From: Saccharothrix espanaensis DSM 44229
Lineage (GTDB): Bacteria; Actinomycetota; Actinomycetes; Mycobacteriales; Pseudonocardiaceae
Assembly: GCF_000328705.1 (NCBI RefSeq)
Contig: NC_019673.1
Coordinates: 3,472,001 to 3,536,000 of the forward strand
Length of the DNA stretch: 64,000 nt
Direction: 5' to 3'
The notes beneath the pieces were generated by a model that made no database searches, was not told the DNA's origin, and saw only the letters and a program-made list of their open reading frames with translations. Positions 3,260 through 49,730 of this stretch are shown one piece after another. A program made the translations under genes and the position numbers. Each line of letters begins with the position of its first letter. The stretch's first letter is position 1.

Positions 3260-3925
3260 GTGCCGAATTTCTCGCCAGTGATGTGCAGGATCGGTCCGCC
3301 GGGCGGGGAGTTCACCCTCTGGCCGGTCGCCGCGGTCGACGGGACCTGGCTGCACCTCGACGGGACCGCCGACCAGCACGACGTGGGCAGCGCGTTGTGC
3401 GCCCTGTACTTCGCCGGCGGCGGGTCGACCGCGGGCAGCACCGACGAGGCCGTGCACGAGCTGATCGGCTTCGACACCCTGTACGCGCCCGGCGGTTTGT
3501 TGCTGCGCGACAACGGCACCAGTGTCGAACCGGGCCCGCGTTCGGAGCTGTTCGCTTGGCGCACCTGGCTGGCGGCGCTGTACCGGGCCGAGATCGATCT
3601 GGGGCCGGGGCCGTGGGTCGAGTACGTGGGCCCGGGAATGGGCGCGGAAGTGGGCGCGGAAGTGGGTCCGGAAGTGGGTCCGGAAGTGGGTCCGGACGTG
3701 GGTCCGGACGTGGTGCGCGTCTGGCCGGGGGAGGGGCGCGCCGGGCCGTACGTGGACGTGGCGCGGCAGGCCCTGCCGGGGATGCTGAGACAGGTGCAAC
3801 GCGACCTGACGGGGTTCCTGGGTGCGTTGCGGACGTGGGCGGCCACCCACTCGCCGGACCAGACCGAACTGCTCGTCGCCGCGGTCGACGCGGGCCTGGA
3901 GATCACCGAACCCCTCCCGCTGTGA
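3260..3925 (+). CDS. Hypothetical protein with a tetrapeptide repeat
   Basis: I do not recognise this 221-aa protein. The N-terminal 125 residues look like a compact soluble domain rich in Trp, Gly and acidic residues. They are followed by six tetrapeptides of the form G-A/P-E/D-V (about residues 127-151), then a helical C-terminal part. No signal peptide or membrane segment is visible. The GTG at 3260 has no ribosome site and lies about seven bases after a TAGCCT box, so the mRNA may be leaderless. An in-frame ATG at 3281 is the alternative start. It stands alone between two hairpins and has the codon use of its neighbours, so it is probably a real gene. Confidence 0.75.
   Translation: MPNFSPVMCRIGPPGGEFTLWPVAAVDGTWLHLDGTADQHDVGSALCALYFAGGGSTAGSTDEAVHELIGFDTLYAPGGLLLRDNGTSVEPGPRSELFAWRTWLAALYRAEIDLGPGPWVEYVGPGMGAEVGAEVGPEVGPEVGPDVGPDVVRVWPGEGRAGPYVDVARQALPGMLRQVQRDLTGFLGALRTWAATHSPDQTELLVAAVDAGLEITEPLPL
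3640..3711 (+). repeat. Six in-frame copies of a 12-bp repeat
   Basis: The unit is GGGCGCGGAAGT or GGGTCCGGAAGT/GGACGT, repeated six times without gaps at 3640-3711. Copies pair off (1-2, 3-4, 5-6 identical), suggesting stepwise duplication. It encodes alternating Gly/Ala/Pro-acidic-Val tetrapeptides inside the hypothetical gene and keeps the frame. Confidence 0.95.
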
Positions 3926-3997
3926 GCCGACCTCACCCGGCCGTGCGGCGATCGGAATTCCTTGTCGCAGAGCCACGTTCGGCCGGCTTGAATGACC

Positions 3998-4035
3998 GCG
4001 GCCTGGTGCCGGGACCGATCCCGGCACCGGGCCGC
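3998..4035. terminator. Bidirectional terminator between convergent genes
   Basis: The inverted repeat has 17-bp arms (3998-4014 and 4019-4035), one G-U type mismatch and a four-base loop. It lies between the stop of the + strand hypothetical gene (3925) and the stop of the - strand mbtH (4040), so it can end transcription from both sides. Confidence 0.85.
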
Positions 4036-4039
4036 CACC

Positions 4040-4231
4040 TCACGCCATCGCGTCGCGCAGGGACTTCGGCCGCATGTCGGTCCACACCTCGTCGACGTGG
4101 GCGGAGCACTCGTCCAGCGTGCCGGTCTTGCCGTCCGCGACCCACCCCGCCGGGACCGGCTGGTGGGCCGGCCACAGCGAGTACTGGCCCTCGTCGTTGA
4201 CCAGCACCTGGTAGGCGATGTCAGACCTCAT
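4040..4231 (-). CDS. MbtH-like protein of the NRPS operon
   Basis: This 63-aa MbtH-like chaperone is the last gene of the NRPS transcription unit and should assist the eight-carrier assembly line. It shows NDEGQYSLWP near residues 11-20, PAGW, and the C-terminal WTDMRPKSL block. The ATG at 4231 has an AGGAGG site nine bases upstream. A GTG nine bases earlier would sit directly on that site and was rejected. Its start overlaps the end of the MFS gene by 11 bases, so the two are coupled. It differs clearly from the other MbtH at the left edge in its N-terminus and central region. Confidence 0.96.
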   Translation of the reverse strand: MRSDIAYQVLVNDEGQYSLWPAHQPVPAGWVADGKTGTLDECSAHVDEVWTDMRPKSLRDAMA

Positions 4232-5449
4232 CGGGAACACCCTCCTGATCGACTTTCCTGGCTGAATAGCGCCGCAAGGTCGGACTGACCGTCACGAACG
4301 CGGTAATCACGGCGATCCCCACGGCGCAGACCAGGACGGCCCGGTCCGCGGAGAAGGCTTCGGTGAGCGTCCCGCCCACCAGGGGCCCCAGCGCGCCCGC
4401 CGCGCCGACCACGACCGACAGCACCCCGCTCATCCGCCCGCGCAACTCGTCGGGCGTCAGCAGCAGCTGGTGCGTCGAGATCGTGGTGTTCGCGGTGGGC
4501 GCCAACAACGTCATGAGCGCGAACAACCCGCCCATCACGATACCGTCGGACACGAAGTAGGCGATGGGCGTCAGCAGCGTCAACGCCCAGAACACCGACG
4601 CGATCGAGATGAATGGCCCCAGCGCGCGGTGTAGCCACGGCGCGATCAACGCGCCCACCACACCACCGACACCGAGCATCGCGGCCATCACGCCGATCAT
4701 CGCGGACGACACGCCGCGTGCCTCCGCCAGCACGATGACCACCAGGTAGAACGCGGTGAAGAACAGGTTCAGCACGACCGCGCACAACGCCGTGACCCGA
4801 ACCTCCCGCCGCTGCCACACCCACCTCAGCCCGTCGCCCATCTCCCGGACGAAGTGCTGCCGGTTGACGACGGGTTCCCTGGGCGGCACCCGGAGAAACG
4901 CCAGCGCCACGAACGCCAGGCAGTGCGTGATCAGGTCCAGCAGGAACGGCAGCCAGCGGGTGAAGGCGAACAGCACGCCGCCCAGCGTGGTGCCGACCGT
5001 CTGGCCCAACGACGACCGCGCGGCGTTCATCGCCACCGCCGTCGCCAACTGCTCCTCCGGCACCAACCGGGGCAGGCAGGCGTCCTCGGCGGGTTCGAAC
5101 AGGGCACGGGCCACGCCGAGCACCGCCGCCACCGCCGCCATGTGCAGGAAGGACGGCTCGCCCACGATCAACGCGATCACCAGCGACGCCAGCGCGACTG
5201 CCTGCGCCGCCTCGCACGCCAGCATGATCCGGCGCCGGTCCATCCGGTCGACCAGCACCCCGGCCGGCACGCCGGCGAGCAGCTGGGCGGTGGCGTCCAC
5301 GGTGAGCACCAGGCCGGACGCGACCGGCGAGCCGGTGATCGCGAGCACCAGCAACGGGAAGGCGATCATCGTGGCCGAGAAGCCGACCTCGGCGACCGCC
5401 TGCCCGCCCCAGAGCAGCGTGTAGTTCCGGTTGCGCGCCAACGAGACGG

Positions 5450-5453
<4 letters not shown>
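4221..5453 (-). CDS. MFS exporter, EntS-like
   Basis: This 410-aa major facilitator protein has about twelve membrane segments and resembles the EntS/MFS_3 group that exports siderophores and peptides. The N-terminal [18 protein letters not shown] segment and the loop motif [11 protein letters not shown] (about residues 61-71) are characteristic. Its GTG start overlaps the NRPS-2 stop by four bases (GTGA), and its end overlaps the second mbtH. This tight coupling argues that it exports the peptide made by the two synthetases. Confidence 0.93.
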
Positions 5454-24034
<18,581 letters not shown>

Positions 24035-24037
24035 GGT

Positions 24038-27000
24038 TCACGCTTCCCGGTCGATGAGGGCTTCGAGGTCGGCCAGCACCAGGTCCTCGACCAGGTCGGC
24101 GAGACAGGACACGGTGCGGGCGGTCAGCACGTCCCGCGGGGACAGCTCGACGGCGAACGCCGCCTTGGTCCGGGACGTGATGCGCAGGCTGCGGATCGAG
24201 TCGCCGCCCAGCGCGAAGAAGCTGTCCTCGACACCGACCCGGTCGACGTCGAGTTCGTCGGCCCAGATGGCCGCGATGGCCTCTTCGGTCTCCGTGCGGG
24301 GGGCGACGTACTCGGTGGAGGTGACCGCGTCGCGCTCGGGCGCGGGGAGCGCGACGCGGTCCAACTTGCCGTTGGCGTTGAGCGGCAGACGATCCAGTGC
24401 CACGAACGCCGTAGGAACCATGTGTTCGGGCAGCGCACTCGAAGCGTGACCGCGCAGTTCCGATACCTGCACGTCCCCGTTCGGCACGTAGTACGCCACC
24501 AAACGCTGTTCCTGCTCCAGCACAACGACCTGGGCGACGGCAGGATGCGCACCCAGGACGGTTTCGATTTCGCCGAGTTCGATCCGGAAGCCGCGGATCT
24601 TCACCTGCTGGTCCGCCCGGCCCAGGTAGTGCAGCTTCCCGTTGAGCCATTTGCCGAGGTCGCCGGTCCGGTACATGCGAGTACCCGCTGTGCCGTAAGG
24701 GTTTGCGAGGAACCGCGAGGCGGTGAGCCCCGGCCGGTCGAGGTAGCCCCGGGCCAGGCCCGGCCCGGCCACGTACAGCTCACCGGTCACACCCGGCGGT
24801 ACCGGTTCGAGGTCGTCGTCGAGCACGTAGACGCGGAGGTCGGGGATGGGTTCGCCGATACTTCCGTCGGCCTCGGTGTAGGTGACGTGGACGGTGGTCT
24901 CGGTGATGCCGTACATGTTGATGAGGGCGCCGCTGCCCTGCCAGTCCTTGACCTTGTGCAGGTCAAGGGCCTCGCCGCCGAAGATCACGTACCGCGGGTC
25001 GGGCTGCTCGGGCACCAGTTGGTAGAACGCGGAGGGGGTCTGGTTGAGCACGGTGACGCCTTCGTCGCGCAGCAACCGGGCGAACTCGGCGGGCGATCGG
25101 GAGATCTCGTACGGCACGACGACGAGTCGTCCGCCGTGCAGCAGCGGGCCCCACAGCTCCCAGACGGAGAAGTCGAAGGCGTAGCTGTGGAACAGCGTCC
25201 AGACGTCGTTCTCGCCGAACCCGAACCAGTGACTGGTCGCCGAGAACAGCCGAATGACGTTGCCGTGCGGGATGACGACGCCCTTGGGCCTGCCGGTCGA
25301 CCCTGAGGTGTAGATCACATAGGCCGCGTTGTCCGGCGTCAGCCGCACGTCCGGCGCCACCACCGGACATCCGGACACATCGGGCATCGCGTCGAGCACG
25401 GCCACGGGCTTCGCGTCCGCGATGGTGCCCGCGATCCGGTCGGCCGGGTATGCCGGGTCGATCGGCAGGTACGCCGCCCCCGCCTTCAGCACGGCCAGCA
25501 CCGCCACGACCAGGTCGGCGCTGCGCGGCAGCACCAGCGCCACGAACCGCTCCGGCCCCGCGCCCAGCCCGACCAAGTGGTGCGCCAGCTGGTTCGCGCG
25601 CTCGTCCACCTGGCGGTACGTCAGGGAAACGCCCTCGAACGTGACCGCGGCGGCGTCCGGCGTCCGGGCCGCCTGGGCGGCGAACAGCTCGGGGATGGTC
25701 GAGGACGGCTCGCCGGCCGCCTGCCCGTTCCACTCGACCAGCACCTGCCGGCGCTCGGCCTCGGACAGCCACGGCACCCGCGCCACCGGCCGGTCCGGGT
25801 CGGCGACCAGGCCGACCAGCAGCGTCGTGAGCCGCTCGCCCAACCGGGCCACGGTGTCCGCGTCGAACATCGCCGGCTCGTAGCCGAGCAGCACGCCCAG
25901 CCGGTCCGCCGGGTAGACGGTGGCGCTGAGCGGGAAGCTGGTCATCTCGACCGCCTCCAGCTCCCGCAGGCCCATCCCGTCGGCGAGGTCGGCCGGGTAG
26001 TTCTCGAAGATCACCGCGCTGTCGAACAGCCCGGTGCCCGCCTCGACCCCGCTCCACGCCTGGAGGCTGGTCAGCGGGACGTGCTCGAACCGGCGCGATT
26101 CCGCCTGCGCCGCCTGGAGGTCGCGCAACCAGTCGGCGACCGGCCGCGCGCCGTCGACCTGGACCCGCACCGGCAGCGTGTTGATGAAGATGCCGGTGAT
26201 GGCGTCCACGCCGGGCAGGTCCGGCGGCCGGCCGGAGACCGTCGCGCCGAAGCACACGTCACGCTGCCCGGACGACCTGGCCAGCAACAACGCCCACGCA
26301 CCCTGCACGATCGCGCTGGGCGTGACCCGGTGCGCGCGGGCGAACTCGTAGAGCCGCGCCGAGTCCGCCTCGGTCAGCTCCACCGAGAGGCGGGCCGACG
26401 ACGTCGCGGAGCCGGTGCCCGGCCGGTCGGCGGGCAGCGGCGTGGGGGAGTCGAACGAGCCGAGCACCTGCCGCCAGTGCCGTTCCGCCGCCTGGTCGTC
26501 CTGCGCCGCCAGCCACGCCACGTAGTCCCGGAACGGCCGCCGCTCGGCGGGCTCGCCCAGCACGTCGGACAGCACCTGGAACACGCTCCAGCCGTCCAGC
26601 AGCACGTGGTGGAAGGTCCACAGCACCCGCACCGACTCCGCCGACAGCCGCACGATCGCGACCCGCATCAGCGGCGCGACCCCGAGGTCGATCCCGGCCG
26701 CCTTGTCCTGCGCCAGCAACGCGGTCAGCCGCGCGGCCCGCTCGGTCTCGTCCAGCCCGCTCCAGTCGAGGAACGTGAACGGCACCTCGGCGCGCTCGTG
26801 CACGACCTGCAACGGCTCGCGAACGTCCTCCCACAGCACGGAACTGCGCAACACCGGCGTCCGGTCCACGACCCGTTGCCACGCCGCCGCGAACGCCCCG
26901 GAGTCCGGCACGCCGTCCACCACGAAGGTGGTCTGCTGGAAGTACACGCCCTGCTCGCCCAGGCCGTGGAACACCATGCCGGCCTGCATCGGCGTCAACG

Positions 27001-30000
27001 GGTAGGCGTCCTCGCCGGTGATCCGGTCGACCTGCTCCTGGGTGAGCCGCGCCAGCGGGAAGTCCGAGGGCGTCCGCCCGCCCGCGCCCGGCTCCGCGCA
27101 GTGCGCCAGGATCGCCCGCAACGCCACCGCGAACGCCTCGGCGAGCCGCTCGACCGTGGCGTCGTCGTGCACGGCGGAGCTGTAGTACCAGGAGAACTCC
27201 AACCGGTCGTCCTGCACCTTGCCGACGACGTCGAGCAGGTGCGGGCGCGGCATGTCCGGGTCCGCCAGCAGGTCGAGGTCCCGCTGACCGGTGAACCGCC
27301 CCAGGTAGTTGAAGCTCACCGCCGGGTCGCACCCCGGGCCGTCCGCCAGGTAGCGCAGCGCCCCGTACCCGACGCCGCGCCCCGGAACGGCCCGCAACTG
27401 CTCCTTGATCGACTTCAACGCCGAACCCCAGTCGCGCGGAACCTCCAGCGCCACCGGGAAGACCGTGGTGAACCAGCCGACCGTGCGGGACAGGTCGACG
27501 TCGTCGAACAGCTCCTCGCGCCCGTGCCCCTCCAGGTCGACCAGCACCCGGTCCCGACCGGTCCAGTCCGCCAGCACGCGCCCCAGCGCGGTCAGCAGGA
27601 CGTCGTTGACCTGCGTGTGGTAGACCTCCGGCACGTCACGCAGCAGCGCCGAGGTCTCCGCCTCGGTCAACCGCACGCCCACCTCACGCGTCGTGGCGAA
27701 CGTGTTCGCCCCGTCCCGGTCGACCGGGACCCCGTCACCGGACACCGCCGACCAGTAGGGCAGCTCGTCAGCGAACCCCCCAGCCACCGCGTGACCGTGC
27801 AACCTCCGAGCCCAGTCCCGGAAAGAGGTGGTCTTGGGTCCGATGTGGACCGGCGATCCCTCCACCACCTGCCGATAAGCCGTCATCAGATCCTCGGACA
27901 GGATCCGCCACGACACCCCGTCCACCACCAAGTGGTGCGCCACCAGCAGAACCGACCGCGCACCGAGCACCTCGGCCCGCAGCAACGGCTTCCCGTACCC
28001 GACCGCCTCGTTGAACTGCCGATCACCGTCGAACCGCATCCGCAACGCGTCGTGGTGGGCGATCAACGCCTCGACCGCCACCTTCACCGCGCCGACGTCC
28101 AAGTCACTGTCGAAGTCCACGACCAACGTCTGGTCGAACAACGTGGATCCGGTGCCCACGAACCACTTCTGGATCGGCGTGAGCGGGGCGTCGCCGGTGA
28201 CCGCTCCCTGGTCCGTGACCGGCGGCAGGTCCCGCCGCACGTGCGGAGCCAGCGCCGCGATCGTCTGGTGGGCGAAGATGTCCCGCGAGGTCAGCACCAA
28301 CCCGGCCTGCCGGGCCCGCGTGACGACCTGGATACCCAGGATCGAGTCCCCGCCCAGCGCGAAGAAGTTGTCCCGCACCCCGACCCGCGCCGCACCCAGG
28401 ACCTCGGCGAAGATGCCGGCCAGCGTGGCCTCCACCGGCGTGCGCGGCGCGACGTAGACCCGAGGCTCCTCCGGCGGGGCGGGCAGATTGTCCCGGTCGA
28501 GCCGGGCCAGCCCCACGAACGTCGTGGGCACGCTGTGGGCCGGCAGCACCTGAGCCAGGAAGCCCTGCAACGCGGCGGGGTTCACCTCCGGCGTCACGTA
28601 CGCCACCAGCCGCCGGTCGGTCGCCACGACCGCCGCGTCGGTCACCTCGTGGTGCCGCCGCAGTGCCTCCTCGACGGCCTTCGGGTCGACCCGCACGCCG
28701 CGCACCCGGACCGTGTCGTCCGGCGGGAAGTCCAACGCCACCAGCCGCCGCAACTCGCGATCGGGGTCCTCGACGACGTCGTGCAGCAACGTCTCCAGGT
28801 CGTCCGCCAGCACCTCGACCGTCGAGAGGTCGAACAGGTCGGTGTTGTACTCGATCGTCAGGGCCAGCGAGTCATCACGCGGCCAGAACTCCACCACCAG
28901 GTCGAACCGCGCGTTCGGGCGCGGCAGGTCGTGCTCGGCCACCACGAGATCGCCGAACCGGCCGTCGCGCACCAACGGCGGCTGCAACGCCACGACAGCC
29001 TGCACCAACGGCGTGCGGCTGGGGTCCGGGTCCACGCCGACCTCCGCCACCACCCGGTCGAACGGCACGTCGTCGTGCGCGAACGCCTCCAGCACGGTGT
29101 CCCGGACGTGGTCCAGGAACCCGGTGAACGGCAACTCGGGGTCGACCCACGACCGCAGCACCAGCGTGCGCACGAAGAAACCGACCGCGCGCTCCAGATC
29201 CGCGTGGTCCCGCCCGGACGTCACCGTGCCCAGCACGATGTCCCGCTGCCGGCTGCGTGCCGACAACAACACCTGCACCGCGGCCGTCAAGGTCATGAAC
29301 AGGGTGGCGTCGTGCGCCCGCCCGACTCCGGCCAACCGCGCGACCAGGTCGGCCCGCAGCGGCCGCCGCAACACCGCTCCCGCCGAACTCCGCAACGCCG
29401 GCCGAGGCCGATCGGTCCGCAGGTCCAGCGCCTCCAGGCCGGCCAGCTTCGTCCGCCAGTACGCCACGTCCCCGACCGGTCGAGCCGCGTCCCACACCGC
29501 GAAGTCGGGGTACTGCGCCGTGACCGAGGGAGGCTCCTCCCCGGCGTACAGCGCGGCCAGCTCCTCCACCAGCACCCCGACAGACCAACCATCGGTCACG
29601 ATGTGGTGCTGCACCAGCACCAGGACATGCTCATCGGACCCCGAAGCCGTCAGCACGGCCCGCGTCAACGGCCCTTGCCGAAGGTCGAACGGCACCGCCA
29701 GGTCCTGCGCGTCCCCGACAACCAACGGTATGGATCCCTGTGCCGCGACAACCTGCACCGGCACACCGTCCACGACGTCGAACGTCGTCCGCAGCGCGTC
29801 GTGCCGCTGTGCCAACGCATCCAACGCCCCGGCCAACCGAGGCACGTCCAGCGCCCCGGTCAACCGCAACCCGACAGCCGTGTTCTGCTCCGCCGTGCCG
29901 TCCAACGAGAACAACCGACGTTGCGCCGGCGACAACGGCAACGCCTGCCCGCGCGGCACCCGAGGTATCGGCGAGTGCACGGGCAGCGCCAGCGCCAACG

Positions 30001-31597
30001 CCTCCACCGTCCGGTGCTGGAACATCGCCCGCACCGGCAACCCGCCGAGGCGTCCCAACGCCCGCACGGCCAGGATGGAATCCCCGCCCAGCGCGAAGAA
30101 GTCGTCCTGCGCGCCGACGTGCTCGACACCGAGCACGTCCGCCCACACCTCGGCGACCCGCCGCTCCTCCTCGGTGCGAGGCGCGACGAAGTCCTCCGGA
30201 ACCTCGCCCACGACCGGAGCCGGCAACGCCGCCCGGTCCAGCTTCCCGTTGGGTGTCAACGGGAACGCGTCGAGCTCGACGAACGCCGACGGCACCAGGT
30301 AGTCGGGCAGCGTGGCCGCCAGGCCCTCCCGCAACCCGTCCGTCGACCCCACCACGTACGCGACCAGCCGCTTCGGCTCGTCCCGGGGCACCACCACGAC
30401 CTGGCGCACACCGGGGAACCCCGCCAGCACCGCCTCGATCTCGCCCGGCTCCACCCGGAACCCGCGGATCTTGACCTGGTGGTCGGCCCGCCCGACGAAG
30501 TCCATCGTGCCGTCCGCCGACCGCCGCACCACGTCGCCGGTCCGGTACATCCGCGACCCGGGCGGCCCGTACGGGTCCGCCACGAACCGCGACGCCGTCA
30601 ACCCCGGCCGCCCCAGGTACCCGCGGGCCAACCCGAGCCCGGTGACGTACAACTCGCCCTCGTCGCACGCCGTGAGGTCCGCGTCCAACACGCGGACCAC
30701 CGTGCCCGGGATCGCCTTCCCGATCGGCGGCGACGCCCCGCCGGGAACCAGCGCCTCGCTCCACGACGTGACCACGGTCGACTCGGTCGGCCCGTAGGCG
30801 TTGATCATCCGTCGCCCCGGCGCCCACTGCTCCACCAGGTCCGCCGAGCACGCGTCGCCGCCGACGATCAACGTCCGGAAGCGGGGCAGGGCCCGCCGCG
30901 GCACCGTGGCCAGCGCGACCGGCGGGATCAGCGCGTGGGTCACGCCGAACTCCTCGATCACGTCCGCGAGCTGGTCGCCCAGCAGCGGCCCCTCCGGCGG
31001 GACGACCAACGCGGCCCCGGCGGGCAGCGCCATGCACAGCTCCAGCACCGACGCGTCGAAGCTGGGGGAGGAGAACTGGAGCACCCGGTCACCGGGCCGC
31101 ACGTCGAAGTGCAGCACCTCCGCCGCCGAGAACGCCGGCAGCCCCCGGTGCGTGACCACGACCCCCTTCGGCCGCCCCGTCGAGCCGGACGTGTAGATCA
31201 CGTACGCCGGCTGGTCGGCGGAGATCTCCACCCCCGGGTCGACGTCCGGCCACCCGCCCACGTCGACCGGCCCGTCGATCACCAGCAGCGGCTGGGCGTC
31301 GTCGACCATGAACGAGATCCGCTCCGCCGGGTAGGCGGGATCGACCGGCAGGTAGGCCGCGCCGGTCTTGAGCACCGCGAGCCGCGCCACGACGTTGTCC
31401 ACCGAGCGCGGCAGGGCGACCGCGACCACCTGTTCCGCGCGGGCGCCCTTCGCGATGAGCAGGTGGGCGAGCCGGTTGGCCCGCGCCTCCAGTTCGCTGT
31501 AGGTGACCGTCTCCGTCGCGGAGACGATCGCCGGCGCGTCAGGTGAGCACGCGACCCGCGCGCTCACCAGTCTCGGCAGGTTTTGGGCAGACGTCAT
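24038..31597 (-). CDS. NRPS-1: starter A-T, A-truncated module, Thr module
   Basis: This 2519-aa synthetase begins directly with an A domain (TSGST 136-140, Lys452), with no starter C domain, so the peptide keeps a free amino end. T1 follows (Ser507). Module 2 has an L-type C domain (HHIVTDG 664-670), only the last part of an A domain (about 957-1045), T2 (Ser1085) and E (HHLVVDG 1221-1227). Module 3 has a D-accepting C domain (HHVLLDG 1663-1669), an A domain (TSGST 2097-2101, Lys2411) and T3 (Ser2467). The module 3 pocket reads DFWNIGMVHK, the classical Thr code. The A1 pocket reads DALLIGAVVK, close to one of the Tyr codes but not assigned with confidence. The ATG at 31597 lies 74 bases after the thioesterase stop, with an AGGAAAGG site about 11 bases upstream. 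Confidence 0.97.
28457..28729 (-). other. Remnant of an adenylation domain in NRPS-1 module 2
   Basis: Between the C domain and T2 of module 2 there are only about 90 residues of A-domain sequence. They match the C-terminal lid: [17 protein letters not shown] parallels the usual [17 protein letters not shown], and the DRDNLPAP tail parallels [10 protein letters not shown]. The roughly 400-residue core with the ATP and substrate sites (motifs A1-A7) is absent. The catalytic A10 lysine is missing too, since the stretch before LDR reads LAR instead of NGK. The reading frame is intact, so this looks like a clean in-frame deletion. Confidence 0.93.
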
Positions 31598-31671: not shown

Positions 31672-32937
31672 TCAGACCATTTCCGGGACCCGTCGGCGGG
31701 CCAGCCGGCCACCGATCTGGATCCACTGGATGCCGCCCCCGCGGGGGTCCCGCAGGAAACGGCCGGTCTGACTGGTGTCGCCGGTGTCGGAATCCCGCAT
31801 CGCGAACACCAGCCCGTCGAACATCGACAGGTCCGCGAACGGCTCGCCGTCCACCGTGAGCTTGAGCACTTCCCGCTCCGTGGGCTGCACCGAATACTCG
31901 ACATCACCGTTGACGAAGCTCCCGGTGCAGTCCTCCGGCGGCGTGATCGGGTCCCGCAGGGTGCCCAGCCCGTCGTAATCGCCGACCGGCAGACCGGCCT
32001 CCGCGAATTCCGGCACCAGGTCCCGCCACAAGGCGAACCCGCTGCTCCCGTTGGTGGTGAGCGCCACCACGGTGCCGTCCTCGGGATTGATCCGGAGGTG
32101 GCAGGAGGTGCCGTCGGCGGTGCCGTCGTGGCCGACCCAGGCCACCCCGTCGCGTTCGTAGAGCGCGAGCCCCAGCCCCCAGCCGTCGGCCATCCCGAAG
32201 GGTTCGGCGTGCCGTACGGGGGTCCGCATCAGCGCCAGGTCCGCCTCGTCCACGAGGTGCGGTGGCGTGCCCGCCAGCATGCGGCCGAACGTCACCAGGT
32301 CGGTGGCGCTGGCGGCGAGCGCGCCGGCCGGCGCGTCGACGAGTTCGAGCGACTGGCGCACCGGGACGACCCGGCGCTGCGGCAGGTTGACCGCGTGCCC
32401 GCTGACCACGCCGCGGTCCGCCTCGGGCCCCACGGTGAAGTGCGGGCGCAACCCCAACGGGCGCAGCAGGACCGCGTCCACGGCTTCCCACCAGGACATT
32501 CCCGTCGCCACCTCGATCAGGTGGCCGACCAGGACGTAGCCGATGTTGGAGTAGGAGAAGCCCGCGCCGGGGCTGTGCAGCGGGACCAGCGTGCGGCCCG
32601 CCTCCAGCGCGTGACGGCGCAGCGAGGTGGTGCGGACGTCGTCCGGGTCGGACGGGAGCCCGCCCGTGTGGCTGAGCAGGTGGCGCAGCGTCAGCGGGTG
32701 TTCGACGTCGGGCAGGGGGGTGTCGAGGTCGAGGTCTCCGTCCGAGACGAGGGTCATGGCGACGGTCGCGGTGAACGTCTTGGTGATCGAGCCGATCGGC
32801 ACGGCCGCGTCCGCGGGCAGGCCGACCGAGGTCGTCCAGAGGCCGGCACCGGGTCGGTGGACGGCCAGCTGCGCGCCGGGCACGAGGTGGTCGCGCACGA
32901 GTCCGGCTAATCGTCGCGCGAGGTGATCGGTATCCAT
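31672..32937 (-). CDS. PBP-type thioesterase / serine hydrolase (SurE-like)
   Basis: This 421-aa protein has the penicillin-binding protein/class C beta-lactamase fold. The nucleophile motif SITK is at residues 50-53, YSN at 129-131 and the third motif HDG at 270-272. Stand-alone enzymes of this type (SurE of surugamide synthesis is the model) release and cyclise peptides from synthetases that lack a thioesterase and end in an epimerase, as NRPS-2 does. It is the first gene of the operon, 74 bases ahead of NRPS-1. The ATG at 32937 has an AAGGA site six bases upstream. A longer frame to 33024 lacks a ribosome site and adds no recognisable sequence. A self-resistance beta-lactamase or D-aminopeptidase is possible, but the context favours the cyclase. 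No signal peptide is seen, consistent with action in the cytoplasm. Confidence 0.9.
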   Translation of the reverse strand: MDTDHLARRLAGLVRDHLVPGAQLAVHRPGAGLWTTSVGLPADAAVPIGSITKTFTATVAMTLVSDGDLDLDTPLPDVEHPLTLRHLLSHTGGLPSDPDDVRTTSLRRHALEAGRTLVPLHSPGAGFSYSNIGYVLVGHLIEVATGMSWWEAVDAVLLRPLGLRPHFTVGPEADRGVVSGHAVNLPQRRVVPVRQSLELVDAPAGALAASATDLVTFGRMLAGTPPHLVDEADLALMRTPVRHAEPFGMADGWGLGLALYERDGVAWVGHDGTADGTSCHLRINPEDGTVVALTTNGSSGFALWRDLVPEFAEAGLPVGDYDGLGTLRDPITPPEDCTGSFVNGDVEYSVQPTEREVLKLTVDGEPFADLSMFDGLVFAMRDSDTGDTSQTGRFLRDPRGGGIQWIQIGGRLARRRVPEMV

Positions 32938-33299
32938 CGAAGGTCCTTTACAGGAATGAGCCCATTCGGCTTCGATCCAAGTTGACGGCCGTTCCAGGAT
33001 CATCGCGACCGCCAAACGGAGCATCTGCGGAATATAGATTCCCCGGTTTGTCGAGACGTAACCACGCGTTCTTGGATTGATCTCCGCGGTTCACTCGAAC
33101 GGCCTGGTTTGGACCAGTCAGTTCCGTAATGAGGGGACGTTTGCGAGGATTATTCGCACTCGCCTGGCATGGAGTTCTGTCAACGGGTAATCTGACCACA
33201 GGGTAACCCGCCGAAGGCTATTCAACCCAGCCCGGGGGTATTTCCGAAGATATCTCCAAGATCCCGTAACCAAAGCTCCACGGCCTCGTTTGCCGGATG
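32938..33299 (-). promoter_or_regulatory. Likely promoter and operator region of the NRPS operon
   Basis: This 362-base gap precedes the thioesterase gene and is less GC-rich than its surroundings. It holds two short palindromes that look like operators: GGAATATAGATTCC at 33029-33042 and CTGGTTTGGACCAG at 33104-33117. On the - strand the first contains a TATATT box, and a TTGACA box occurs at 33178-33183, but no pair with normal -35/-10 spacing is clear. The start site is not assigned. No gene is seen in it. Confidence 0.45.
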
Positions 33300-41791: not shown

Positions 41792-42778
41792 GTGACGACA
41801 ACGGCAGTTCCGGCCATCGGCGAGGATGAGATCGCCGCCTTCCGCGCCCTGCACGGCAAGCTCGGCGACGCGGTCGAGGCCGCCGTGCGCGGCAAGCGCG
41901 GTGTGGTCGACCTCGTTCTCGTGTCCATGTTCGCCGGGGGTCACGTGCTGCTCGAAGACGTGCCCGGCACCGGGAAGACGACCTTGGCGCGTGCCGTCGC
42001 CGGGGCGCTGGGCGGGGTGTCCCGGCGGGTCCAGTTCACCCCCGACCTGCTGCCCTCGGACGTCACCGGCACGTCCGTCTACGACCCGCAGACCGGCGAG
42101 GTCCGGTTCCGGCCGGGTCCGGTCTTCGCCAACATCGTGCTCGCCGACGAGATCAACCGCGCCGCCGCCAAGACCCAGTCCGCGCTGCTCGAGGTGATGG
42201 AGGAGCGCACCGTCACCGTGGACGGCGTCGCGCACGCCGTGCCCGCGCCGTTCCTCGTCGTCGCCACCCAGAACCCGATCGACCTGGACGGCACCTACCG
42301 GCTGCCCGAGGCGCAGCTGGACCGGTTCATGCTGCGCACGTCCATCGGCTACCCGACCGCCGAGCACGAGCTGGACGTGTTGCGGCCGGGCAGCGGCGCG
42401 GGGTTCGTCGGCGCGGTGCCGACCGTGTCCAACCCGCACGTGGTCGCCGAGTACGGCCGCCGGCTCCAGTCGCTGCACGTGGCCGAGCCGATCCTGCGCT
42501 ACATCGGCGAGCTGGGCACGGCGTCGCGCTCGGACGACCGGCTGCGGCTCGGTGCGAGCACGCGCGGGCTCAAGGCGCTGGTGCGCTGCGTGCAGGTGTA
42601 CGCGGCGGCGCAGGGCCGGCACTTCGTCGTCCCCGGTGACGTGCAGGCGCTGGTCGTGCCGGTGCTGGCGCACCGCCTGGTGCTGACCCGCGAGGCCCAG
42701 CTGGCCGGCACCACCACCGAAGAGGTGCTGGCGGACGTCCTGTCGGGCGTCGCGGTGCCCCGACCGTCCGCGCGATGA
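41792..42778 (+). CDS. MoxR-type AAA+ ATPase
   Basis: This 328-aa AAA+ protein has Walker A EDVPGTGKTTL near residues 50-60, Walker B LADEINRA near 117-124 and the sensor region VATQNPIDLDGTYRLPEAQLDRF typical of MoxR ATPases. Family members act as chaperones for partner proteins with von Willebrand or DUF58 domains. The DUF58 partner overlaps its stop by four bases. The GTG at 41792 has a GAGGGG site about 11 bases upstream, just after the 17-bp repeat array. Confidence 0.95.
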   Translation: MTTTAVPAIGEDEIAAFRALHGKLGDAVEAAVRGKRGVVDLVLVSMFAGGHVLLEDVPGTGKTTLARAVAGALGGVSRRVQFTPDLLPSDVTGTSVYDPQTGEVRFRPGPVFANIVLADEINRAAAKTQSALLEVMEERTVTVDGVAHAVPAPFLVVATQNPIDLDGTYRLPEAQLDRFMLRTSIGYPTAEHELDVLRPGSGAGFVGAVPTVSNPHVVAEYGRRLQSLHVAEPILRYIGELGTASRSDDRLRLGASTRGLKALVRCVQVYAAAQGRHFVVPGDVQALVVPVLAHRLVLTREAQLAGTTTEEVLADVLSGVAVPRPSAR

Positions 42779-44046
42779 CCAGCGCCGGGCCTGCTCGCCC
42801 CGCGACGACCAGCGCCGGGCCGGCCGTTCCCGCGACGACCAGCGCCGCGTCTGCTGTCCCCGGGACGACCAGCGCCCGGCTCACCGCCCGCGCGACGACC
42901 AGGGTCCGGCTCACCGCTCGCGGTCTGGGTGCGGTCCTGGTCGGGGTGCCGTTGGTGGCGTTCGGGCTGTGGTGGAGCTACCCCGGTCTCGCGGCCCTGG
43001 GGCTGGCGCTGGTCGCGCTCGCCCTGGCCGGCGTGCTGTCCGTGCTCTCCCGCGCGCAGGTCAGTCCGAAGCGGACGGTCCGGCCCCGGACCGTGCAGCG
43101 GCTCGGCACGTGCACCGGGACGATCGAGCTCACCGGCACCAGCCGGCGGTTCCCGGTGCTGTTCGACGCGACCGACGAGGTGGCCGGGAACGTCGTGGCG
43201 GTCGACATCCCGCCGCTGCACCCCGGCCAGAGCACGAAGGTCGAGTATCCCATCCCCACCCACACCCGAGGTCTGCTCCGGGTCGGCCCGCTCACGCTGA
43301 GCAGGCGTGGCCTGGCCGGTCTCGCGCACGCCCGCACGGTCGTCGGCGACGTCGTGGACGTGCGGGTCGTGCCGCGCGTGCTGCCGGTGCGCGGCCTGCC
43401 CGGCGGGGTTCGGCGCGGTCACGTCGGCGCGGACGAGCGGGTCGAGCGCGGCGGCACGGACCTGGTGGGGCTGCGCGAGTACGTGCCCGGCGACGACCTG
43501 CGCCGGCTGCACTGGGCGACCTCCGCCCGCACCGGCACGCTGATGATCCGCGAGGACGCCGACCCGGCCCGCCCGCACCTGGCCGTGGTGCTGGACGACC
43601 ACGCCGACGGCTACCCCGACCCGAAGGACTTCGAGGACGCCGTCGAGGTGGCGGCGTCCCTGGTGACGGTGGCGATCGCCGAGGGGCACCCGGTGCGGCT
43701 GCTGTCCGCGTCCGGCTCGGTGGACGTCGAGCTGCCGCCGGGCGCGGTCGACGCCGACGCGTCCGCCGTGCTCGCCGCCCTCGCCGACCTGACAGCCGCG
43801 CCCCAACGTCCCGCCGTGCCGCGCCCGGTGCCGATCCGCGACCTCGACGTGGTCGCGGTGGTGGGCGGGGCCGGTTCGGACCTGTCGGCGTTGACGTTGG
43901 AGGCCGGGCGCGCGTCGGTCGGCGTGGTGCTGGCCGTCGACCCGTTGCCGGACGTGCCGATCTCCGCCATCGGCACCGTGCTCGTGCTGCGCGCGCCGAA
44001 GGCCGAGGCGCTGCTGTCGGCGTGGAACACGGCGGTGTCCCGGTGA
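42775..44046 (+). CDS. DUF58 protein with a repetitive N-terminus
   Basis: This 423-aa DUF58 protein is the usual partner of MoxR. Two membrane helices lie near residues 50-90. The diagnostic block LREYVPGDDLRRLHW is at about 233-247, followed by a von Willebrand-like region with VVLDDH. The first 45 residues are unusual: four tandem decapeptides of the type TTSAGPAVPA, encoded by a 30-base DNA repeat (about 42779-42900). They carry no family sequence and probably arose by recent duplication. An in-frame start after the repeats is possible, but the ATG overlap with moxR supports 42775. Confidence 0.92.
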   Translation: MTSAGPARPATTSAGPAVPATTSAASAVPGTTSARLTARATTRVRLTARGLGAVLVGVPLVAFGLWWSYPGLAALGLALVALALAGVLSVLSRAQVSPKRTVRPRTVQRLGTCTGTIELTGTSRRFPVLFDATDEVAGNVVAVDIPPLHPGQSTKVEYPIPTHTRGLLRVGPLTLSRRGLAGLAHARTVVGDVVDVRVVPRVLPVRGLPGGVRRGHVGADERVERGGTDLVGLREYVPGDDLRRLHWATSARTGTLMIREDADPARPHLAVVLDDHADGYPDPKDFEDAVEVAASLVTVAIAEGHPVRLLSASGSVDVELPPGAVDADASAVLAALADLTAAPQRPAVPRPVPIRDLDVVAVVGGAGSDLSALTLEAGRASVGVVLAVDPLPDVPISAIGTVLVLRAPKAEALLSAWNTAVSR

Positions 44047-46157: not shown

Positions 46158-46361
46158 CCTCCCCGCCCCGCTCGCTCCCCGCCCCGCTCCTCCCGACGCA
46201 CACGCTCCACCGCTCACTGATTGCCGCACGCACGCACGCGCTGCGCCCGCTCGGCGATGCCCGCCGGCTCCGCCGTCGTGCTGGACCGGGCACTCGCATC
46301 ACGTCAGGGCTGGATCAGCCAGGGTCACGGCGTGCCGCTCAGGTGAGCGGTGGAGGGTGGG

Positions 46362-47972
46362 TCAGCGGTTGCGGACGGCGCAGGCCGGGGTGGAGGCACC
46401 GCGTTTGCCGTCGCCGTTCACGCTGAACGCGAGGACCTGGTAGCAGTACTCGCGGGCTTGCGGGTCCAGTCCGGTGACCGTGTGCCGGGTGACCCCGGCG
46501 ACCACCGTCACCACCGGGTCGTGCTTGCCGCCCGTCACGTCCATCAGCACGAACTGGGCCTGCCCGTCGGTCGGGTCGGTCCAGAGCACGTCGATGCTGG
46601 AACCGTTGTCCTCCAACCGGTTCAGCGTCGGGGCGAAGGTCGGGTCGATGCCCGGGTCCTCGGCCGCCGTCACGCCGGTGGTCACGCCGGTCGTCACGAT
46701 CGGGGCGGTGGTCGTCGTGGTGGGGAGTGTCGCGGTCGTGCCGCCGCGGTCCTGGGTAGCCCACAGGGCGCCCGCCGCCACCGCCGACACCACGGCGATC
46801 GCCGAGAAGACCAGCGCACGGGGGTTGCGGCGGTGCTTCGGCGGTGGTTCGGGCAGGGTGACCAGCGGCGGCGCGGGTGGCGGCAGCACCGGGCGGGGCC
46901 GGGCGTCGTGCCGGACGGTCAGGTCCGCCAGGTCCTCGGTCCAGCTGCGCACCGGCTCCGGCGCGACCTCCGCGGGCTCGGCCGGCGCGGGCTCGGCCGG
47001 CGGGCGCGGGCCGAAGTCCGGGATCGCTGTCGGGCCCTCCGGGATCTGCTCCCGCACCTCCCGGCGCACCGCCGCGGTGTGGTCCGGGTCGACGCCCGCC
47101 TGCGGTGTCCACGTCGGCACCGCCGCCAGCGCGGCCCGCAGCGCGGCGGCGTCCGGGAACCGGTCCTCACGTGCCTTGGCCAGGCACTTCACGATGATCG
47201 CGATCAGCTCCGGCGGCACGTCCCGGCGCAGCAGCGACCTCGGCGCGGCCGACCGCACGCGTCCCAGGTAGCCGAGCATGGTGTCCTGCTCGGGCGTCGA
47301 GGACGCGAACGGCGGCTGCCCGTCGAGCAGGGTGAACAGCGTCGAGCCCAGCGACCACAGGTCGTCCGACGCCGCCGGCGGGTGCCCCTCGACCATCTGC
47401 GGCGCGGCGTGCCGGTAGCTGACCAGTTGCAGCGACGCCGAGTGCCCGGCGTCCGCGCCGCGCGCGATGCCGAAGTCGGCCAGCACGTAGGACGTCGGCA
47501 GCACCAGGATGTTCTGCGGCTTCACGTCCCGGTGCAGGATGCCCTGGCCGTGCGCGAACGCCAGCGCGTCGGCCACCGCGATGCCCGCGGCGATCACGTC
47601 GGCGACCGGCAGCGGGCCGCGCTCCCGGAGCCGGTCGTGCAGCGAGCCCAGGTCGTAGTACTCCATCACGATGCACGGCCGGCCGGCGACCGAGCCGGTG
47701 TCCAGCACGGTCACGACGTGCGGGTGCTGGCGGCCCAGCCGGACGGTGATCTCCAGCTCCCGGCGGAACCGGGCGAGGGTGTCCGGGTCGGTCACGTCGA
47801 GGACCTTCACCGCGACGTCGCGCCCGAGGCCGTCCTGGCTCGCCCGGTACACGGTGCCCTCCCCGCCGTGCGCGACCAGCCGGAAGTCGCTGTAGCCGGG
47901 CAGCGAGATCGTCGGAGCCGTGGCGGCGGAGGGCTTCGGTGCCCAGGCCTGGAGGTCGTCGGACGGGTCCAC
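46362..47972 (-). CDS. Membrane Ser/Thr protein kinase with an FN3 sensor
   Basis: This 536-aa protein is a Hanks-type kinase. The glycine loop GGEGTVY is at residues 36-42, catalytic Lys56, HRDVKPQN at 147-154 and DFG at 166-168. After a Pro-rich linker comes one membrane helix (385-406), a Thr-rich stalk and an FN3-like domain (about 447-535) outside the cell. The layout fits envelope sensing, as in PknB-type kinases, and the adjacent FN3/MoxR operon is a plausible partner. The GTG at 47972 is 87 bases from the divergent acyl-CoA synthetase start. It is convergent with the transglutaminase gene across a C-rich 204-base gap with no other gene. Confidence 0.94.
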   Translation of the reverse strand: MDPSDDLQAWAPKPSAATAPTISLPGYSDFRLVAHGGEGTVYRASQDGLGRDVAVKVLDVTDPDTLARFRRELEITVRLGRQHPHVVTVLDTGSVAGRPCIVMEYYDLGSLHDRLRERGPLPVADVIAAGIAVADALAFAHGQGILHRDVKPQNILVLPTSYVLADFGIARGADAGHSASLQLVSYRHAAPQMVEGHPPAASDDLWSLGSTLFTLLDGQPPFASSTPEQDTMLGYLGRVRSAAPRSLLRRDVPPELIAIIVKCLAKAREDRFPDAAALRAALAAVPTWTPQAGVDPDHTAAVRREVREQIPEGPTAIPDFGPRPPAEPAPAEPAEVAPEPVRSWTEDLADLTVRHDARPRPVLPPPAPPLVTLPEPPPKHRRNPRALVFSAIAVVSAVAAGALWATQDRGGTTATLPTTTTTAPIVTTGVTTGVTAAEDPGIDPTFAPTLNRLEDNGSSIDVLWTDPTDGQAQFVLMDVTGGKHDPVVTVVAGVTRHTVTGLDPQAREYCYQVLAFSVNGDGKRGASTPACAVRNR

Positions 47973-48059
47973 CCGCGGATCCTATCCGGCGGGCCGGCGC
48001 GGGATCGACACCTCCGAATGGGGGTGGTGCGGCGCGGCTCACCGCCCCAGGCTCGGGTG

Positions 48060-49730
48060 ATGAGCTTCCGCGACGCCCGTGACCTGCTCCTGCGCCACGC
48101 GACGGACTACGCCGCCGCGCGCGAGGCGTTCACCTGGCCCGAACTCGACGAGTTCAACTGGGCGCTGGACTGGTTCGACGTGATCGCGCGGGACAACGAC
48201 CGGATCGCGCTGTGGATCGTGGAGGAGGACGGGTCCGAGGGGCGCTGGACGTTCGCGGACCTGGCCCGCCGCTCGGACCAGGTGGCGAACTGGTTGCGGG
48301 ACAACGGGGTGCGCCGGGGCGACCGGGTCGTGCTGATGCTGGGCAACCAGGTCGAGCTGTGGGAGGTGCTGCTGGCCGCGATGAAGCTCGGCGCGGTGGT
48401 CATCCCGGCCACCACGCTGCTGGGGCCGGTCGACCTGCGCGACCGGGTCGGGCGCGGGGGAGCGCGGCACGTGGTGACGGGGTCGGCGGACGCGCCGAAG
48501 TTCGTCGACGTGCCCGGCTCGTACACCCGGATCGCGGTCGGCGGCCGGGTCTCCGGCTGGCTCGACCACGCGGACTCCGCTGCCGCGTCGGCGCAGTTCA
48601 CGCCCGACGGTGTCACGCGCGGTTCGGACACGTTGTTGCTGTACTTCACCTCTGGCACGACCGCGCGACCGAAGCTGGTCGAGCACACGCACGTGTCGTA
48701 CCCGGTCGGGCACCTGTCCACGATGTACTGGATCGGCTTGGAACCGGGCGACGTGCACCTCAACATCTCGTCGCCGGGGTGGGCGAAGCACGCGTGGAGC
48801 AACGTGTTCGCGCCGTGGAACGCCGAGGCGACGGTGTTCGTGCACAACTACACCCGGTTCGACCCGGCGCGGCTGATGTCCGAGATGGACCGTTGCGGTG
48901 TCACCAGCTTCTGCGCGCCGCCGACCGTGTGGCGGATGCTGATCCAGGCCGACCTGACCGCGTTGCGCACGCCGCCGCGCAAGGTGGTCGGCGCGGGCGA
49001 GCCGCTCAACCCCGAGGTGATCGAGCGGGTCCGCGCGGCGTGGGGGGTGACGATCCGGGACGGGTTCGGCCAGACCGAGACCACCGTGCAGATCGCCAAC
49101 ACCCCGGGCCAGCCGGTGAAACCGGGCTCGATGGGCCGCCCCGCGCCGGGCTACCCGGTGGTGCTGGTCGACCCGGTGACCGGGGAGCCGGGCGCGGAGG
49201 GCGAGATCTGCCTGGACCTCGCGCACCGGCCGCTGGGCCTGATGGTCGGCTACCACGGCGACGCCGAGCGGACCGCCGAGGTGATGCGCGACGGCTACTA
49301 CCACACCGGTGACGTCGGGTCGGTGGACGAGGACGGGTACCTGACCTACGTGGGACGCACCGACGACGTGTTCAAGGCATCGGACTACCGGATCTCGCCG
49401 TTCGAGCTGGAGAGCGTGCTGCTGGAGCACGAGGCGGTGGCCGAGGCGGCGGTGGTGCCCGCCCCGGACCCGCTCCGGCTGGCCGTGCCGAAGGCGTACG
49501 TGGTGCTCGCGGCCGGGTTCGAGCCGGGGGAGGAGACGGCGCTGGCGATCCTGCGGCACGCGCGCGAGAACCTGGCCCCGTACAAGCGGATCCGCCGGCT
49601 GGAGTTCGCGGAGCTGCCGAAGACGATCTCCGGCAAGATCCGCCGGGTCGAGCTGCGCGGCCGGGAGACCGGCGAACGCCCGGCCGGCGAGTACCGCGAC
49701 GAGGACTTCCCGGCCTTGCGCCACCCCTGA
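48060..49730 (+). CDS. Acyl-CoA synthetase (AMP-forming)
   Basis: This 556-aa enzyme belongs to the acetyl/medium-chain acyl-CoA synthetase group, which activates a carboxylic acid as the AMP ester and loads it onto CoA. The phosphate loop YFTSGTTARPKLVEHTH lies near residue 195-211, the GFGQTETT motif follows, YHTGDVG and the hinge GRTDDVFKASDYRISPFE come later, and the catalytic lysine is near residue 526 in ISGKIRR. It has no carrier domain and its sequence is unlike the NRPS A domains. The ATG at 48060 lacks a strong ribosome site, and a GTG directly before it is an alternative. Its substrate is not known. Confidence 0.92.
   Translation: MSFRDARDLLLRHATDYAAAREAFTWPELDEFNWALDWFDVIARDNDRIALWIVEEDGSEGRWTFADLARRSDQVANWLRDNGVRRGDRVVLMLGNQVELWEVLLAAMKLGAVVIPATTLLGPVDLRDRVGRGGARHVVTGSADAPKFVDVPGSYTRIAVGGRVSGWLDHADSAAASAQFTPDGVTRGSDTLLLYFTSGTTARPKLVEHTHVSYPVGHLSTMYWIGLEPGDVHLNISSPGWAKHAWSNVFAPWNAEATVFVHNYTRFDPARLMSEMDRCGVTSFCAPPTVWRMLIQADLTALRTPPRKVVGAGEPLNPEVIERVRAAWGVTIRDGFGQTETTVQIANTPGQPVKPGSMGRPAPGYPVVLVDPVTGEPGAEGEICLDLAHRPLGLMVGYHGDAERTAEVMRDGYYHTGDVGSVDEDGYLTYVGRTDDVFKASDYRISPFELESVLLEHEAVAEAAVVPAPDPLRLAVPKAYVVLAAGFEPGEETALAILRHARENLAPYKRIRRLEFAELPKTISGKIRRVELRGRETGERPAGEYRDEDFPALRHP

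Follow-up and report, generated by a model that had tools for sequence, protein, structure and literature searches.

Introduction

NRPS modules that lack a working A domain have been described in several systems. The mannopeptimycin NRPS has the organization [C-A-T-E-C-A-T-C-T-E], in which one A domain feeds two T domains and is reported to supply both of them with the same monomer (PMC8949500). For capreomycin, the A-less CmnI, a separate protein, is reported to be loaded by CmnA-A1, the loading being shown by protein mass (PMC12400406). Modules that retain only the Asub part of the A domain (A*) are described as rare in PMC10587159, which names kutzneride and glidonin. The former has a non-functional A*, mentioned there as similar to the Asub-only type, together with the stand-alone loader KtzN, while module 13 of glidonin GdnB, C-A*-T-TE, keeps Asub only, and its C and T domains are needed in vivo.

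The locus considered here lies in Saccharothrix espanaensis DSM 44229. The window, the whole stretch of 64,000 nucleotides that was analysed, covers positions 3472001–3536000 of a single contig of 9,360,653 bp. As in mannopeptimycin, an A-less C-T-E module directly follows A-T; unlike mannopeptimycin, this module is the second of its line, more modules follow, its loading is putative, and a lid has been retained in it in three of the genus groups. The likeness to capreomycin is that an A-less module would be served by the A domain of another module, whereas CmnI loading is experimental, and the part of that paper at hand mentions no lid remnant. The module resembles kutzneride in its non-functional A*, but no stand-alone A gene in the manner of KtzN was common to all 29 regions fetched. 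As in glidonin, the core has been lost and Asub kept; the glidonin module, however, is terminal and uses putrescine, whereas the present one is internal, carries an E domain, and is followed by C3, A3, T3 and NRPS-2. A PBP-fold cyclase gene and an NRPS that ends in E, with no TE found, are shared with the SurE/Ulm16 lines.

Domain organization of NRPS-1 and its neighbours

The window was scanned with a domain HMM built from its two NRPSs (Table 1). The stretch at 28457–28729 (minus strand) corresponds to residues 957–1047 of the 2519-aa NRPS-1. Between C2 and T2 the only match was a lid, at residues 963–1052, which scored 50.5 bits, the seven complete lids giving 135.5–148.7 bits. The HMM detected no A core in this interval, and the alignment showed that the catalytic-lysine loop was absent too. 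What is left of the A domain in module 2 is about 80 residues of its lid, which bears out the initial annotation, in which the A domain of module 2 was nearly gone with a lid remnant kept. Likewise as first noted, the reading frame across module 2 is open and the C, T and E motifs are intact; the third-position GC of the frame is high. With Pfam, NRPS-1 gave two matches to AMP-binding, three to AMP-binding_C and three to PP-binding. The DFWN-type code of A3 is presumably that for Thr.

Table 1. Features of the NRPS-1/NRPS-2 locus (window coordinates)
Feature	Position	Strand	Basis and remarks
NRPS-1	24038–31597	−	2519 aa; A1-T1-C2-[lid only]-T2-E2-C3-A3-T3 (domain HMM)
A1 core + lid	30176–31561	−	HMM; code DALLIGAVV; candidate loader of T1 and T2
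T1 carrier	29990–30196	−	HMM
C2	28712–29947	−	HMM; HHIVTDG at residue 664
Lid-only remnant (Asub)	28472–28711	−	Residues 963–1042; HMM and predicted Asub fold
T2 carrier	28244–28459	−	HMM; Ser1085 at 28343–28345, GGDSI
E2 epimerase	27008–28198	−	HMM; HHLVVDG at residue 1221
C3	25688–27013	−	HMM; HHVLLDG at residue 1663; C5/C7 subtype (both follow E domains)
A3-lid3-T3	24095–25681	−	HMM; code DFWN-type here, differs between species
NRPS-2	5450–24034	−	6194 aa; C-A-T-E C-A-T C-A-T-E C-A-T C-A-T-E (HMM)
PBP/beta-lactamase-fold protein, SurE/Ulm16-like cyclase	31672–33024	−	PF00144
MFS transporter	4221–5453	−	PF07690
AMP-binding frame	46350–49730	+	PF00501 and PF13193, both in second half

In NRPS-2 the last match, E8, extends to residue 6192 of 6194, and no TE was seen with the models used, which did not include a TE-specific one. 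The PF00144 protein encoded beside NRPS-1 is, by homology, a cyclase of the PBP type, and its best solved relatives were 6ksu (5.1e-74), which we take to be SurE, and 8fek (the PBP cyclase Ulm16; 5.7e-57). Two traits of lines with such cyclases, the PBP-fold cyclase gene beside the NRPS and the terminal E, are both found at this locus. PBP-type cyclases take a D-residue at the C terminus, and the terminal E of NRPS-2 fits this property.

Regions of 47–60 kb were fetched around each of 28 other clusters, reaching at most about 15–18 kb on each side of the NRPS pair and less at contig ends. Of the flank frames that were compared, those of the cyclase and the MFS transporter were the only ones present beside NRPS-1/NRPS-2 in all 28 (median identity 74% for each). 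The domain order of NRPS-2 was the same in the 29 clusters, except that in some of them matches to A, lid or C were split or weak; for two of them (G022 and G015) this comparison includes a short unfetched gap. In two close genomes (G007 and G008), the HHxxxDG motif of one NRPS-2 E domain (E6) was not found.

No A-like frame outside the NRPS pair was common to all 29 fetched regions. Such frames, counted outside both the pair and the neighbouring NRPS, occurred in 8 of the 29, scoring 186 bits in G247 and 53–71 bits in the other seven (our own window, G021, G011, G003, G018, G023 and G024), so that a shared A gene acting in trans from the neighbourhood was rejected. The AMP-binding frame of the window (Table 1) had a close match in 6 of the 28 other regions (median identity 88%) and none in the Lentzea or Allokutzneria-group regions. 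In the genome as a whole, 98 PF00501 matches were counted; the one that was inspected (488 aa) resembles, on a reading of its sequence, a malonyl-CoA ligase. A second NRPS frame, 4904 codons long and directed toward the pair, lies immediately to the left of the window, at 3264–17975 (plus strand) of the fetched stretch L118. A similar neighbouring NRPS was found in the region fetched for G021, and the regions fetched for the others showed none. To the right of the pair, at 41792–44046 (plus strand), the window encodes a MoxR-type AAA ATPase followed by a DUF58 protein.

Lid-only and lid-less module 2 among relatives

The C2-lid-T2 stretch was used as a query against 25 Saccharothrix genomes and 390 genomes of the family. 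It was present in 22 of the 25 Saccharothrix genomes, our own included; 20 of these matches covered the whole query or ran from residue 2–5 to 591, and the remaining two started at residue 83 or 94. In the family, 29 of the 390 genomes, belonging to 3 of 46 genera, matched at E <= 1e-140. Module 2 was lid-only in all 29 clusters, which come from Saccharothrix, Lentzea (four) and the Allokutzneria group (three). The A8-like sequence Rx(R/K)GxRxD was retained in all 29 lid-bearing sequences. The A10 NGK loop was absent from every one of the 29 aligned remnants, in agreement with the early report that the catalytic lysine was gone, and indicating that the lid has suffered a second small deletion besides the core loss. 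The remnant ends in an LPAPP linker, which varied in relatives.

A wider search with T2-E2-C3 gave matches in 139 of the 390 family genomes. Among the matches listed, frames of 2508–2680 aa were taken as 17 further NRPS-1 orthologs, ten from the Actinokineospora group, two from the Actinophytocola group and five from the Kibdelosporangium group. In all 17, C2 runs directly into T2 with no lid. The ortholog comparison proposed at the outset, a search for a full-length A domain at module 2, thus found none in the 46 NRPS-1 examined, the A core being absent from all of them across six genus groups. Since selecting frames by length would pass over any NRPS-1 that had a complete A2, three long frames and twelve other regions were fetched as well; they contained NRPSs with full A domains but a different layout, in some cases truncated at contig ends, and no three-module NRPS-1 with A2 was among them. 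A full A2 after A1-T1-C2 was observed in lines that are more distant, those of Streptomyces and Amycolatopsis included, and in most such lines, among the best 80 of 321 relatives. In the three Allokutzneria-group genomes, module 3 of NRPS-1 is C-T with neither A nor lid, and two consecutive modules are therefore A-less. As a separate observation, in a Streptomyces tateyamensis NRPS that starts with a DALLIGSIV A domain, the fourth module is A-less, with C joined to T (frame at 7408 on the plus strand of the fetched stretch, residues 4133–4175); this is apparently an independent case.

The layout had at first been called unusual. It is not a local peculiarity, the core being absent from all 46 orthologs, and there are precedents in kutzneride, glidonin and mannopeptimycin.

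Predicted fold of the lid remnant

A lid2-T2 model obtained with AlphaFold2 from 19 aligned rows had a mean pLDDT of 84.4 and a pTM of 0.52; the longer C2-lid-T2 model was weaker (pLDDT 70.9). The top Foldseek matches of lid2-T2 were the A-PCP structures LgrA, DhbF, SrfA-C and EntF, with E-values down to 9.5e-14. For both domains together, the TM-scores of these matches by query length were only 0.38–0.48, with an rmsd of 6–14, because the position of the lid with respect to the carrier is different or uncertain. Chains of the A domain only matched the model over 76–99 columns with an rmsd of 1.4–3.8. The remnant is predicted on these models still to fold as a lid (Asub).

Conservation and selection in module 2

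The catalytic motifs of C2 (HH(I/L)(V/I)TDG), T2 (GGDSI), E2 (HHLVVDG) and C3 (HHVLLDG) were each intact in all 46 NRPS-1. Compared with the 21 other Saccharothrix, T2 was the best conserved of the eight carriers (0.91, the others 0.78–0.88), and it also ranked first against the four Lentzea (0.76, the others 0.63–0.74); against the three Allokutzneria-group genomes it was second to T6 (0.80 versus 0.82). By the NG86 method, dN/dS was 0.07–0.22 for T2 and 0.16–0.27 for lid2 in five comparisons, the seven working lids giving 0.06–0.59. On these ratios, the lid remnant is under purifying selection, much as working lids are. The suggestion that selection has kept the module is supported by the motifs, the lid2 ratios and the conservation of T2.

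C3 was 52% identical to C5 and C7 but 27–29% to C2, C4, C6 and C8 (27 genomes, G007 and G008 with their one missing E motif being left out). By this comparison C3 is of the D-accepting subtype, as are C5 and C7, which follow E domains, and the subtype originally assigned to it holds. The A1 code DALL(V/I)GAVV was constant in the 29 lid-bearing clusters and the 17 lid-less orthologs. In contrast to T2, the A3 code varied among the 29 clusters (12 DFWN-type, 8 DVFS, 4 DVWH and 2 DALL), and A3 was missing in three. Among the carriers, T2 was closest to T4 (mean identity 0.69), a likeness common to the four carriers that precede E (0.62–0.69); with T1 its value was 0.49.

History of the A-domain loss

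In a quick T2-E2-C3 tree of 52 rows (46 core-less and 6 with a full A), the 46 core-less sequences fell on one side of a branch with an SH-aLRT value of 99, and the fewest changes on this tree were three, one core loss and two lid losses. A second tree, of T-E-C units (53 rows), moved the Kibdelosporangium group and again gave two lid-less groups. Judged from these trees, one core loss followed by two lid losses is the simplest account.

In a tree of C domains (39 rows, with a long-branch warning), C2 grouped with the Streptomyces C2 (SH-aLRT 84), with the fork partly open. In the 53-row tree, T2-E2-C3 stood away from the Streptomyces module-2 unit (89–92) and nearest to a Kibdelosporangium-group unit (94). 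An origin by one large deletion that fused C2 with the lid from a module further down the line was considered on these quick C and T-E-C trees, which are suggestive only, and was not adopted.

Putative loading of T2

That E2 is intact and C3 of the D-accepting kind is readily understood if T2 receives a residue. Since module 2 has no A domain of its own and no A-like neighbour is common to the fetched regions, T2 must be loaded by an A domain belonging either to the line or to another place in the genome; as read from the sequences, loading by another A domain appears to be the likeliest mechanism. We consider it probable, as one joint judgement, that the adenylation core of module 2 disappeared before the divergence of these genera and that the module nevertheless works, T2 being loaded by some A domain of the same line, whichever that is. 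In the proposed scheme, A1, located immediately before the module in the same protein, would load T1 as well as T2. C2 would join residues 1 and 2, E2 would epimerize the second to give an L-X/D-X start, and C3 would pass the chain on toward NRPS-2; after E8 of NRPS-2, the SurE-like cyclase would close a head-to-tail ring, presumably of eight residues. The lid remnant may act as a non-catalytic spacer or docking piece between C2 and T2, which is in keeping with the finding of PMC8097286 that recombination tends to leave Asub-T interfaces intact. An essential role of the lid in loading is argued against by the two lineages that lost it. A literature search on the A-domain code strings returned no paper, and among the papers listed in searches on this cluster none was recognised as dealing with its product.

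As for the loader itself, A1 is favoured by its adjacency on the chain (A-T lies directly upstream of the A-less module on the same polypeptide in the 46 NRPS-1 examined), by the constancy of its code in all 46, and by the mannopeptimycin A-T-C-T-E precedent; we tentatively give it close to an even chance. Against A1, T2 resembles T4 and the other E-preceding carriers more than T1. That something other than A1 loads T2 is a real possibility, which overlaps with our preferred explanation because the latter leaves the loader open within the line. Here the closeness of T2 to T4, the kutzneride arrangement as described in PMC10587159 and the A-like frames near 8 of the 29 clusters all point away from A1, but no such frame is common to all clusters, that of the window being matched in 6 of the 28 others, and the likeness to T4 is shared by all four E-preceding carriers, so it may reflect the E domain rather than the loader. 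Taken separately, another A domain of the line (e.g. the DTWD-code A4, A5 or A6) is a rather unlikely loader, and one elsewhere in the genome a quite improbable one; A3 is unlikely to be the sole loader, because its code varies or it is missing while T2 stays constant. The proposal that a line A domain loads T2 has its own difficulties: in the Allokutzneria group, with module 3 also devoid of A, the feeding domain would have to serve more carriers, and the scattered A-like frames could include a loader in trans near some clusters.

It appears clearly unlikely that T2 is not loaded at all. A bypass of module 2, with T1 handing over directly to C3 or the chain being shuttled across an unloaded T2 to yield a seven-residue ring, would fit the missing A core, and chain passage onto an A-less carrier is proposed for bonsecamin BonC in PMC8400726. 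However, under a bypass the C2 and E2 motifs would feel little selection, yet they are intact in all orthologs, and C3 retains its D-accepting subtype; we regard this course as improbable. The conservation of the A8-type stretch together with the uniform loss of the A10 lysine loop gives rise to another reading, in which the remnant is a half-lid for thiolation only that may pair with the A1 core for transfer to T2, one A being shared between two lids; the 17 orthologs that manage without a lid make this very doubtful. Direct acceptance by C2 of a free amine or amino acid has its model in glidonin, whose Asub-only termination module does so with putrescine (PMC10587159). That module is terminal, whereas in the present line E2, C3 and another six modules (modules 3 to 8) lie downstream, and the chain must sit on T2 for E2 and C3 to act, which renders such a route highly improbable. 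Finally, repeated module DNA can collapse in assemblies, and a collapse at 28400–28800 had been raised by the initial annotation. The lid-only junction is the same in all 29 clusters, several of them on single-contig genomes, and dN/dS is low; a collapse was rejected on these grounds, and the chance of either that or a recent pseudogene in one strain is virtually nil.

Significance

The family-wide series, and its depth, are new as far as our searches went. Within a single NRPS family, the A domain at one and the same position can be seen at different stages of loss: it is complete in more distant lines, reduced to the lid in three genus groups and wholly absent in three others, and the Allokutzneria group has a further module without A. 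These natural variants, of which there are many, could serve to study the function of the lid and the way in which two carriers may share one A domain, and the finding bears on how A-less modules are read when product size is predicted from sequence.
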